37,496 nucleotides of DNA from Deltaproteobacteria bacterium (lineage in GTDB: Bacteria > Desulfobacterota > Desulfobulbia > Desulfobulbales > SURF-16), in NCBI GenBank assembly GCA_029939635.1, contig JAOZSN010000004.1, positions 1 to 37,496 of the forward strand. The letters run 5' to 3'. The position numbers and the translations under genes were made by a program. Positions 21,658 to 25,647 of this stretch are shown here, piece after piece. Within the stretch, counting starts at the first letter, position 1, and every line of letters begins with the position of its first letter. The notes beneath the pieces were generated by a model, which had not been told where the DNA came from, did not search any database, and was given only the letters and a program-made list of their open reading frames with translations.

Positions 21658-21732
21658 AGTGTCTGTCCAGAAATAGGTCATTTTTACTGTGACGCAGAGA
21701 TCGGGCAAAAGGGCCATTTCTGGACAGGCACT
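21658..21732. repeat. Inverted repeat, 19-nt arms, MITE/palindromic-repeat-like
   Basis: AGTGTCTGTCCAGAAATAG (21658-21676) versus CCATTTCTGGACAGGCACT (21714-21732; reverse complement AGTGCCTGTCCAGAAATGG): 17/19 matches, 37-nt centre. Confidence 0.7.
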
Positions 21733-21864
21733 AACTATTCAGTGGCATAAATCCTTGCATTTTTTTTGCATGCCATGGTAAAGAGAATGACATACGGTAA
21801 AAATTCAGTATGAGGGTTGGCCAAGCTCAACCCAACCACATGAATTGTTTACCTTTTTTTATTT

Positions 21865-21927
21865 GGTGATAGTAGACAGGTTTTCACCTGTCACCCATAA
21901 GGATATGCGGGTTTCTCCCGCCTGGTG
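21865..21927 (+). promoter_or_regulatory. Structured 5' leader: two tandem hairpins ahead of the DHH phosphoesterase GTG start
   Basis: GACAGGT-TTTC-ACCTGTC (21875-21892) and GCGGG-TTTCT-CCCGC (21907-21921); AAGGA at 21899-21903; GTG start 21925-21927. CACC (21892-21895) could pair with GGTG at 21865-21868 or GGTG at 21924-21927. Confidence 0.55.
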
Positions 21928-22950
21928 AGTTATTTGAGTATTGTTCGATCCGGTGATCTAAAAAAGCAGAAGAAACAACCCAAAAAAGCGGCCAGAGACC
22001 GCCTTCATGAATTTTTAGATATTTTCGCCAAAGAGGATGAGTTGCTCATTATCATACTGGCAGACCCAGATTCCATTGCATGCGCCTTAGCGGTTAAACA
22101 ATTATTGCGCTACCGCGTCAAGCGTATGGTCATCTCCCATCCAAATAAAATCAGGCGGTTAAGCAATATCGCCATGGTTGATCATCTCAAGATCAAGACC
22201 ACCCGTCTTAAAGATATCAAGAAGGATGATTTTTCAAAATTCATCCTCCTTGACTCCCAGCCATCCCACCATCCTGAGTTCAGTGAAATCGCCTATGATG
22301 CAGTCATTGACCATCATCCGATCTCCGGCAAATGGCAAGCCAGTTACGTTGACATTCGCCCAGACTATGGTTCCAACGCTTCCATGCTGGTGGAGTATTT
22401 GCGTGCAGCAGAGATGAAACCATCTGTGGCCCTCGCCACAGCCCTGTTTTATGCGATCAAGGTGGACACCCGTAATTTCGAGAAGAAAGCCAATCTCGCA
22501 GATGCTATCTCCTTTCGCTATCTGTTCAATATTGCCAACCGGAATCTGGTTCGTAAGATAGAACTTTCAGAGCTGCGCCTCTCAGAGCTCAACTATTTCA
22601 AGACCGCCTTTGAAGAAATGAAGGTGAATAACAATCGGCTCTACGCCCATGTAGGCCGCGTCTTCAGCCCTGATGTCCTCGTCATTATTGCTGATTTCTT
22701 CAACCGCGTCCATCCCGTATCCTGGGTCTTTATCTCAGGCATCCACGGTGAAAGGTTAGTGGTAATTTTCCGCTGTGATGGCTATCGTAAAAATGCTGGT
22801 GTTCTAGCCAATAAGGCCTTTGGTAAACTTGGTTCAGCCGGGGGCCACCGAGAGGCCGCCCGCGCCGAGGTTTCCCTCAAAAACCTTGACAAGCAGGATC
22901 AAGAATTCACCACCCTCACCTTACGAAGATTGACCAGAAAACATTTATGA
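21925..22950 (+). CDS. DHH-family phosphoesterase (NrnA-like oligoribonuclease/pAp phosphatase family)
   Basis: 341 aa; ADPDSIACALAVKQLL, LDSQPSHHPEF, DAVIDHHPISGKW (DHH), and a DHHA1-like C-terminus with GSAGGHREAARAEV. Confidence 0.85.
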   Translation: MSYLSIVRSGDLKKQKKQPKKAARDRLHEFLDIFAKEDELLIIILADPDSIACALAVKQLLRYRVKRMVISHPNKIRRLSNIAMVDHLKIKTTRLKDIKKDDFSKFILLDSQPSHHPEFSEIAYDAVIDHHPISGKWQASYVDIRPDYGSNASMLVEYLRAAEMKPSVALATALFYAIKVDTRNFEKKANLADAISFRYLFNIANRNLVRKIELSELRLSELNYFKTAFEEMKVNNNRLYAHVGRVFSPDVLVIIADFFNRVHPVSWVFISGIHGERLVVIFRCDGYRKNAGVLANKAFGKLGSAGGHREAARAEVSLKNLDKQDQEFTTLTLRRLTRKHL

Positions 22951-23103
22951 TTCAAAAGAAAGACATCTTTCCTGATCTCAACTGACTAGTTATTTCTTCT
23001 ACAAAAAACTAGAATACCAATAAAAAAAGCACCTTCCAGCTGCATATCCTTTACTTTTCTACTCTTACTCCTGTATTCTTTAGTCTGTGTTTGCTACTTT
23101 TGT

Positions 23104-23131
23104 CTCCTGACTCCTGAATTCTGACTCCTAG
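23104..23131. repeat. Degenerate heptad array upstream of the first glgC-like gene
   Basis: CTCCTGA CTCCTGA ATTCTGA CTCCTAG, contiguous, ending 6 nt before the ATG. Confidence 0.85.
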
Positions 23132-23137
23132 AAAACT

Positions 23138-24382
23138 ATGCAATTAAAGCCCAAAACCCTGGCCATGATTCTGGCTGGTGGCCGTGTCGATGAGTTAAAT
23201 GTCCTGACCTGTTATCGTCCCAAGTCTGCCGTACCCTTTGGCGGATTTGCCAGGGTCATTGATTTCCCCTTGAGCAATCTCATGCACTCAGGATTGGAGC
23301 AGGTGGCCATCCTAAGCCAGTACCGCAGCTTTTCCCTTATCAACCATATTGGTATTGGTGCGGCTTGGGACATGCTGGGTAAAAATCGTGGCGTCTCCAT
23401 TCTGCCACCCTCCACAGGCTATGGCAATACCTCCTGGTATAAAGGTTCTGCCGATGCTGTTTTCCAAAACTCTGACTTTATTGAATATCACGCCCCCCAA
23501 GAGGTATTAATCATCTCAGGTGACCATATCTATAATATGGATTACCAAAAGATCATCGACTATCACCGCTCTAAAAATGCCGATCTTACCATAGGCTGTG
23601 TCCAGGTACCCATGAACAAAACCCATCGCTTTGGCGTGGCTGATATTAATGACGAAGATGGGGATATTGGCGGACGCATCCTGCAGTACAAAGAAAAACC
23701 CAGCCGCCCCAAATTTAATTGGGCCTCCATGACCGTTTTCTGTTTTAATCCCCGCGTTCTCCTTGAGGTTCTTACTACCAATGCCAGAGAGGATGAATCT
23801 TTTGAATTTGGTCGTGACATCATCCCGCGCATGATGTTCGAACAGCGTAAATTTCATGACTACTGGGGATACAGCCGCACCATTGATGAGTATTGGCAAA
23901 CCAATATGGATCTGCTCGGCCAAACCCCAAAAATAGACCTGGAGCGCTGGGGCCTGCGTACCAATCTAGAACATCGTGACATCCGCGACAGCCAACCCCT
24001 CAAGGTCGGCAATGAAGCAACCATCCAGGATAGCCTGGTCTATAATGGCTGTCTCATCGAAGGCAAGGTAGAACGATCCATCATCTTCCCTGGTGTCCAT
24101 GTCAAAAGGGGGGCACATATCAAAGACTCAGTGCTTTTCTTTAACAACGTTGTGGGCCAAGGCACTGTTCTTAATAAGGTAATCAGTGATGTAAACGTCA
24201 CCTTTGGCAATAATGTCAATGTGGGCAATCCAGGCCCTGTGAACGAAAAAGAGGTCACAGTGCTGGGCTGGAATAATTTTTTCCCCAACGAGACTGTCAT
24301 TGGCTCTGATTGCACCATCTATCCGCAACTAAGTCTGGATAAATTAGCCCGTGAAATTAAATCAGGGGAGATAGTACGATGA
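23138..24382 (+). CDS. Glucose-1-phosphate adenylyltransferase family protein with divergent N-terminal signature
   Basis: 414 aa; LAMILAGGRVDELNVLTCYRPKSAVPFGGFARVIDFPLSNLMHSG..SWYKGSADAVFQN..ISGDHIYNMDYQKI..left-handed beta-helix C-terminus. Confidence 0.88.
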   Translation: MQLKPKTLAMILAGGRVDELNVLTCYRPKSAVPFGGFARVIDFPLSNLMHSGLEQVAILSQYRSFSLINHIGIGAAWDMLGKNRGVSILPPSTGYGNTSWYKGSADAVFQNSDFIEYHAPQEVLIISGDHIYNMDYQKIIDYHRSKNADLTIGCVQVPMNKTHRFGVADINDEDGDIGGRILQYKEKPSRPKFNWASMTVFCFNPRVLLEVLTTNAREDESFEFGRDIIPRMMFEQRKFHDYWGYSRTIDEYWQTNMDLLGQTPKIDLERWGLRTNLEHRDIRDSQPLKVGNEATIQDSLVYNGCLIEGKVERSIIFPGVHVKRGAHIKDSVLFFNNVVGQGTVLNKVISDVNVTFGNNVNVGNPGPVNEKEVTVLGWNNFFPNETVIGSDCTIYPQLSLDKLAREIKSGEIVR

Positions 24383-25647
24383 ATAGCCAAAATCAGCCCC
24401 TTGTTCTCATCCTGGCCGGTGGTGTGGGCAGCAGACTCAACAATCTTGTCCAGACCAGGGCTAAACCCGCTGTTCCCTTTGGCGGTATCTATCGCATCAT
24501 TGACTTTTCCCTTTCCAATGTCATGAACTCAGGCTTTAGCCAGATAGGAGTGCTGACTCAATACAAACCCCTGTCGCTGATGAACCACCTTGGCACTGGC
24601 GAGGCGTGGGATTTTAGTGGCCGCAGCCGTGGTATCAAGATTTTACCCCCCCGTACTGGTTCCTCAGACTCTGACTGGTATAAGGGTACAGCTGATGCCG
24701 TGCGCCAGAATATTGATTTTATCCAGGATCATCCCTCTAAAGAGGTGATTATTCTCTCTGGTGACCATATCTACCGCATGGATTTTGATGATATGCTGCA
24801 GTTCCATCGCCGCAAAAAGGCAGATGTCACTATTGGCATGATGGTGGTACCAAAGGAGGATATCCACCAGTTCGGTGCTGGCATCACCAATGAGGAAGGG
24901 CGTATTATTGAGTGGGAAGAAAAACCTGAGGTGCCACGCACCAACCTGGCATCCATGGGCATCTATGTCTTTGACACCAGCTATCTGCTCAAGATTCTAG
25001 CCGAGGACAAAAATGAGGTCGATTTTGGTATGCATCTGGTACCAAAATCCATTGAACGTGATGACGTCTTTGCCTACCCCTTCCATAATTACTGGCGAGA
25101 TGTGGGTACTATCCAGGCCTATTGGCAGGCCAATATGGATCTGTTGGATGAAGACTCCGGTATGTCACCTGAAAATTGGGGAATACGAGCCAATACAGAA
25201 TCAAACGTCACCTCCACGGCAGACCGACCACCCACTCGTTTTACAACTACTGCCAAGGTGCAACGCTCCATGATTGCCGCCGGTTGCACCATTGAGGGCG
25301 AGGTAATCAACTCGGTTCTTGCCCCCGGTGTCACAGTGGCCAAGGGCGCCGTAATACGTGATTCCATCCTCTTCCATGACGTGAAGGTAGGCGAAAACAG
25401 CGTTATAGATTTAGCAATTTTGGATAAACAGGTAGAGGTGGCAAAAGAAGTCATCATCGGCTTCGGTGATGACAAAAAGACAATCAACAAAGAACACCCA
25501 ACCCACCTCTACACCGGCATCACCCTGGTTGGAAAAAATGCCAAGGTGCCTGCAGAGAGCAAAATTGGCCGCAACTGCATTATCCAACCAGCCACCACCG
25601 TCGACCAATTCACCAGCAGTAACCTTACCTCAGGGGAGAGCCTGTAA
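24379..25647 (+). CDS. glgC: Glucose-1-phosphate adenylyltransferase
   Basis: 422 aa; LVLILAGGVGSRLNNLVQTRAKPAVPFGGIYRIIDFSLSNVMNSGFSQIGVLTQYKPLSL..DSDWYKGTADAVRQN..LSGDHIYRMDFDDML. Overlaps the upstream paralogue by 4 nt (ATGA). Confidence 0.93.
   Translation: MNSQNQPLVLILAGGVGSRLNNLVQTRAKPAVPFGGIYRIIDFSLSNVMNSGFSQIGVLTQYKPLSLMNHLGTGEAWDFSGRSRGIKILPPRTGSSDSDWYKGTADAVRQNIDFIQDHPSKEVIILSGDHIYRMDFDDMLQFHRRKKADVTIGMMVVPKEDIHQFGAGITNEEGRIIEWEEKPEVPRTNLASMGIYVFDTSYLLKILAEDKNEVDFGMHLVPKSIERDDVFAYPFHNYWRDVGTIQAYWQANMDLLDEDSGMSPENWGIRANTESNVTSTADRPPTRFTTTAKVQRSMIAAGCTIEGEVINSVLAPGVTVAKGAVIRDSILFHDVKVGENSVIDLAILDKQVEVAKEVIIGFGDDKKTINKEHPTHLYTGITLVGKNAKVPAESKIGRNCIIQPATTVDQFTSSNLTSGESL

Follow-up and report, generated by a model that had tools for sequence, protein, structure and literature searches.

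The window, the whole 37,496-nt stretch of DNA that was analysed, carries on its forward strand a gene for a DHH/DHHA1-type phosphoesterase of 338 amino acids with a TTG start (21934-22950), preceded by a leader that holds a promoter-like element, a terminator-like stem-loop and two shorter hairpins, HP1 and HP2. The gene was assigned from Pfam, where DHH scores above the cut-off (E 1.8e-7) and DHHA1 below threshold, from the conservation of its start, and from a profile of 12 orthologues whose best match is TM1595 (E 2e-7), a DHH/DHHA1 phosphodiesterase of known structure; further matches of the same profile are to phosphodiesterases acting on cyclic dinucleotides. The label of NrnA/pAp-phosphatase is a plausible, putative one. 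The protein has a basic N-terminal tail. At E 0.001, 56 of the 58 relatives have an orthologue; weak second matches are to longer proteins, consistent with A-adding tRNA nucleotidyltransferases. On the same strand, 3' of the DHH gene, lie two genes resembling glgC (ADP-glucose pyrophosphorylase), the three together spanning 21934-25647, and this order is retained with variable gaps at nearly all orthologous loci across the order; the upstream histidine kinase gene is not conserved. Oriented leaders from 19 orthologues of the same family and from L020, of another family, were compared, and counts concerning HP2 and the start codon refer to the 18 leaders with a recognisable hairpin (alignment A1), which come from about nine mutually related genera. 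The genus of the window is denoted g1 and its clade, g1+g4+g5, has seven members and a clade support of 100/99.

Upstream of the gene, the promoter-like element consists of TTGCAT and, 18 nt further on, the extended -10 TGG-TAAAGA (21755-21784, forward strand), and it belongs to a conserved block of the orthologous leaders, TTGCA...YATGGTA at constant spacing being present in 16 of 20. Read as a -35 and an extended -10, this block would place the start of transcription near 21791. A sigma-54 promoter was also considered from the TTGCA element and was rejected, the GG/GC spacing being unsuitable. The distance from promoter to start codon is about 90 nt in most genera and 168-179 nt in g1 and g4. 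Just 5' of the promoter lies an imperfect inverted repeat, AGTGTCTGTCCAGAAAT ... ATTTCTGGACAGGCACT (21658-21732), which is single copy in its own genome with up to three mismatches allowed; a similar repeat end is found upstream of the gene in L028, and the repeat is possibly the remnant of a mobile element.

In g1 and its sister genus g4, a stem-loop followed by 6-8 T residues lies between promoter and gene, occupying 21796-21860 in the window. The stem-loop itself (21796-21853, forward strand) pairs GGTAAA-AATTCA with TGAATT-G-TTTACC around an inner stem GGGTTG/CAACCC, and seven T residues follow directly (21854-21860, forward strand), a T-tract that is kept in four relatives. Only 1 of 300 shuffled sequences is as stable as the stem in the window (z -3.6) and none of 300 is as stable as its equivalents in the four relatives (z -4.2 to -6.2), while across these five genomes several pairs have changed on both sides and a single mismatch is present. 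The stem is confined to the five genomes, being absent from the sister genus g5 and from more distant genera. Stem and U-tract have the anatomy of an intrinsic terminator inside the leader, conserved between promoter and start codon in five genomes, and as judged from this anatomy the element could throttle transcription of the DHH gene. No antiterminator, conserved leader peptide or aptamer is recognisable in the leader; a leader peptide within the terminator region was rejected, the open reading frames there starting variously and ending unevenly (MTYGKNSV in the window). In the g4 leaders L003, L005, L006 and L009, 8-9 bp could form between the 3' arm of the terminator-like stem, AUUUACCAU, and the SD/start region, AUGGUGAAU. 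This pairing is linked to the stem's own pairing, and shuffles equal it in fractions of 0.02-0.06 for the relatives and of about 0.1 for the window; the complementarity is weakly significant and may be incidental.

Nearer the gene, every string quoted in the original prediction proved correct in letters and coordinates: GGTG at 21865-21868, CACC at 21892-21895, AAGGA at 21899-21903, the hairpin GCGGG-TTTCT-CCCGC, here named HP2, at 21907-21921, GGTG at 21924-21927 and GTG at 21925-21927. A stronger local hairpin had been overlooked, the 7-bp HP1 (GACAGGT-TTTC-ACCTGTC, 21875-21892, forward strand), which takes up part of the CACC. Six of the seven members of the clade g1+g4+g5 have retained HP1, with compensatory changes, and L009 is the one without it. 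All seven members have an A-rich single-stranded linker with an AGG between HP1 and HP2, which is not seen outside the clade. In the window this linker contains AAGGA, on the forward strand, with an anti-SD duplex of -4.9 kcal/mol; it may serve as a ribosome landing (standby) site or a minor SD.

Within the window, an all-G/C stem of 5 bp with a 5-nt loop occurs only twice, roughly one hairpin per 660 nt passes a looser standard (5 or more bp, 4 or more G/C, loop 3-8), and the 106-nt leader has an ordinary overall folding stability (z -1.1). Since hairpins as good as HP2 are common in the window, a comparison with relatives was required; on its own HP2 is weak evidence and it is conservation that lifts it above chance. 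Across the 18 leaders 92.2% of cells in the stem are paired, both sides change in 13 cells as against 4.8 in shuffled alignments, and the covariation score is 0.391 as against 0.207 shuffled, with slid controls at 0.166 or below, so that the covariation in orthologues proposed as a check on the leader is borne out for HP2. Given that the 18 leaders are related, independent events are fewer than changed cells. Double changes fall at two of the five pairs, the outermost (GC/AU/UA) and the middle one (GC/AU), another pair is invariant and the number of doubly changed pairs does not exceed that of shuffles; the covariation support is therefore moderate, with few independent events behind it. Searched with a covariance model of HP2, 17 of the 22 family genomes each gave a single clear match, located at the DHH gene, and a weak match in L091 (G021) also lies there. 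With 150 candidates scored per genome, a depth at which weak sites may escape, no HP2 sites forming a regulon were found elsewhere in the genomes; the sole match below E 0.01 at another gene, L087, proved on inspection to be a different hairpin. A DNA similarity search with the whole leader in 22 genomes likewise gave no meaningful second copy. On these sequence comparisons, HP2 is a real RNA hairpin under selection, retained beside the SD throughout the family and specific to the DHH gene. L010 and L019 have either lost HP2 or changed it past recognition, and a further relative, L069, has no HP2-like hairpin yet keeps the promoter and a GAGG...TTG start. In most leaders the loop fits C-N-N-A-U, its second and third positions being free, and this consensus suggests recognition; the loop of the window (UUUCU) departs from it. 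Beyond the family, the hairpin AACAGG-TTGT-CCTGTT lies 12 nt upstream of an ATG in L020, and CCCCT-GCATT-AGGGG lies about 20 nt upstream of a TTG in L029, the neighbour of L020 in the tree; these two hairpins are possible homologues of HP2.

The codon at 21934 is TTG in 17 of the 18 leaders and ATG in the other, although other leucine codons would suit the protein equally, and it lies 12 nt from the hairpin in 16 leaders and 13 and 14 nt from it in the remaining two. In all 18, an SD (GGTG, GGAG, GAGG or AGGA) is found between HP2 and this codon. The SD of the window, GGTGA (21924-21928, forward strand), begins 2 nt past HP2 and ends 5 nt ahead of the TTG, and is thus a usable SD between hairpin and start. 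Five of the 18 leaders have lost the in-frame GTG at 21925, with GAG, AGG, GGA or ATA in its place, yet retain the SD. The gene therefore most likely starts, to judge from these leaders, at TTG 21934, which puts HP2 upstream of the SD. In the family f5, L021 and L023 have a likely start further upstream, TTGATG or ATG after AGGA, and hence an N-terminus unlike that of the window's family.

In the original prediction, AAGGA was the working SD and HP2 a bridge that brought it to GTG 21925, reducing the distance from 21 to 6 nt. The hairpin at the start site stood up to comparison, being conserved, covarying and gene-specific, but its part as a bridge from AAGGA to a GTG start did not: the retention of the TTG, the fixed 12-nt distance and the loss of the GTG where the SD remains all disfavour a start of the T4 gene 38 kind. 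The geometry itself fits, both for the GTG and for an ATG that lies directly 3' of HP2 in six of the seven clade members, at an effective 3 nt in these relatives, and a comparable shortening of the spacing has been reported in T4 genes 38 and 25 (PMC3014915). Yet the window has CTG (21922) where its relatives carry that ATG, HP2 is kept in g3 and g6-g9 without the AAGG linker, and every one of the 18 leaders has a better placed SD past the hairpin (such as GGTGA, GGAGA or GAGGA), serving the TTG or ATG that lies 12-14 nt from the hairpin and nine nt beyond the GTG. Orthologues with a downstream start and a normal SD were the very observation that the prediction had named as speaking against it. 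The anti-SD duplex is also stronger for GGTGA (-7.4 kcal/mol) than for AAGGA, with the standard anti-SD assumed for the genome because the usual 16S 3' end gave no match in this assembly. Bridged initiation is kept as a rival because g4 and g5 have an ATG directly after the hairpin and an AGG before it; this residual support is limited to the window's clade, where it would be a minority option, and as an account of the leader bridging is unlikely.

Mutually exclusive folds, in which CACC 21892-21895 would pair with either GGTG and so switch the start on or off in the manner of a riboswitch, had also been put forward. Such pairings exist on paper, and in the partition function of the window GGUGAG (21924-21929) has a probability of about 0.4 of pairing with 21883-21888, in competition with HP1, but this pairing was not seen to be conserved. 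The partners of the upstream-to-start duplex vary between relatives and are not conserved in g4/g5, and the fraction of shuffles that form as good a duplex is 0.55 for the window and 0.11-1.0 for the relatives, so that the alternative folds are no better than those of shuffled sequence. What is conserved in the leader is a set of short hairpins, with neither a conserved aptamer nor conserved mutually exclusive folds, and a search of Rfam with the window and four relatives returned no family, riboswitches included, at the gathering score and only weak sub-threshold chance matches under permissive settings. Switching of this kind is very improbable. Rather unlikely, too, is the reading in which a separate small RNA of ~70 nt ends at the 5' stem, or this stem protects the 5' end of the mRNA from decay, and HP2 is a mere spacer leaving the SD free. 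Hardly any leader precedes the stem to hold an antiterminator, and a U-tract suits the end of a small RNA equally, but in the genera without the stem the same promoter runs straight into the gene, which implies that the gene depends on read-through. Against the spacer, HP2 covaries beside the SD, which suggests that it is more than that.

The region is thus probably, as far as sequence comparison can tell, a gene-specific structured mRNA leader in which HP2 gates or keeps access to the SD, with a terminator-like element upstream. Transcription would start near 21791 and, in g1 and g4, the nascent RNA would first fold the terminator-like hairpin with its U-tract (21796-21860), which would be expected to end part of the transcripts early. 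Transcripts that read through would carry HP1, the A-rich AGG linker and HP2, the last stacked against the SD (GGUGA) of the UUG start at 21934, where it would keep or gate access of the 30S subunit without shortening the distance between SD and start. HP2 shares with autoregulatory translational operators a conserved RNA structure next to a single gene's ribosome-binding site. Most likely it would either be bound by a trans-acting factor, for which the DHH protein, with its basic tail as a hint, is a candidate, or act as a standby-type hairpin. This raises the more speculative and doubtful possibility that a DHH/DHHA1 phosphoesterase degrading small RNA or nucleotides binds the C-N-N-A-U pentaloop hairpin at its own SD, that the lineage's terminator adds attenuation, and that expression follows the level of the enzyme or the load of its substrate. 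Were HP2 a protein operator, regulation of a DHH enzyme that degrades nucleotides or RNA could connect to glycogen metabolism. The leader is in any case a small and testable cis-regulatory candidate in uncultured relatives of sulfate reducers, tied to one gene beside two glgC genes; its analysis corrects the start codon and illustrates that a start-adjacent hairpin need not mean a bridged SD.

Known kinds of regulatory element include structured leaders, attenuators and SD-adjacent operators, and the leader of the DHH gene is not in Rfam; no description of it was found there or in the literature searched, which covered few subscription papers. Leader transcription attenuators place an intrinsic terminator between promoter and gene, as does the present leader, in which a conserved stem and U-tract separate a conserved promoter from the coding region, but here an antiterminator, leader peptide or aptamer is not recognisable and the stem would begin almost at the start of transcription. 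In T4 genes 38 and 25, structured spacers between SD and start reduce the distance from 22 to 5 and from 27 to 11 nt respectively (PMC3014915). As in those genes, a hairpin lies here between an SD-like AAGGA and possible starts, and bridging would give a normal distance; unlike them, the leader has a better SD 3' of the hairpin and a TTG start downstream, and the hairpin is kept without the upstream SD. The standby-site modules of bacterial 5' UTRs comprise a hairpin that excludes the SD, a single-stranded distal site and a short proximal site (PMC3936740), and HP2 resembles them in that it excludes the SD and is flanked by a single-stranded distal linker of 13-18 nt and a short proximal site. 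The modules have a biophysical definition for which sequence conservation is not required, whereas HP2, known here from sequence, is conserved in stem position and in part of its loop. Finally, the operator hairpin of T4 gene 43 is bound by the gene product about 40 bases upstream (PMC3014915). HP2 is comparable in its position near the ribosome-binding site of a single gene and in its partly conserved loop letters, but the product here is a DHH phosphoesterase and not a polymerase, and the binding of a protein to HP2 is putative.
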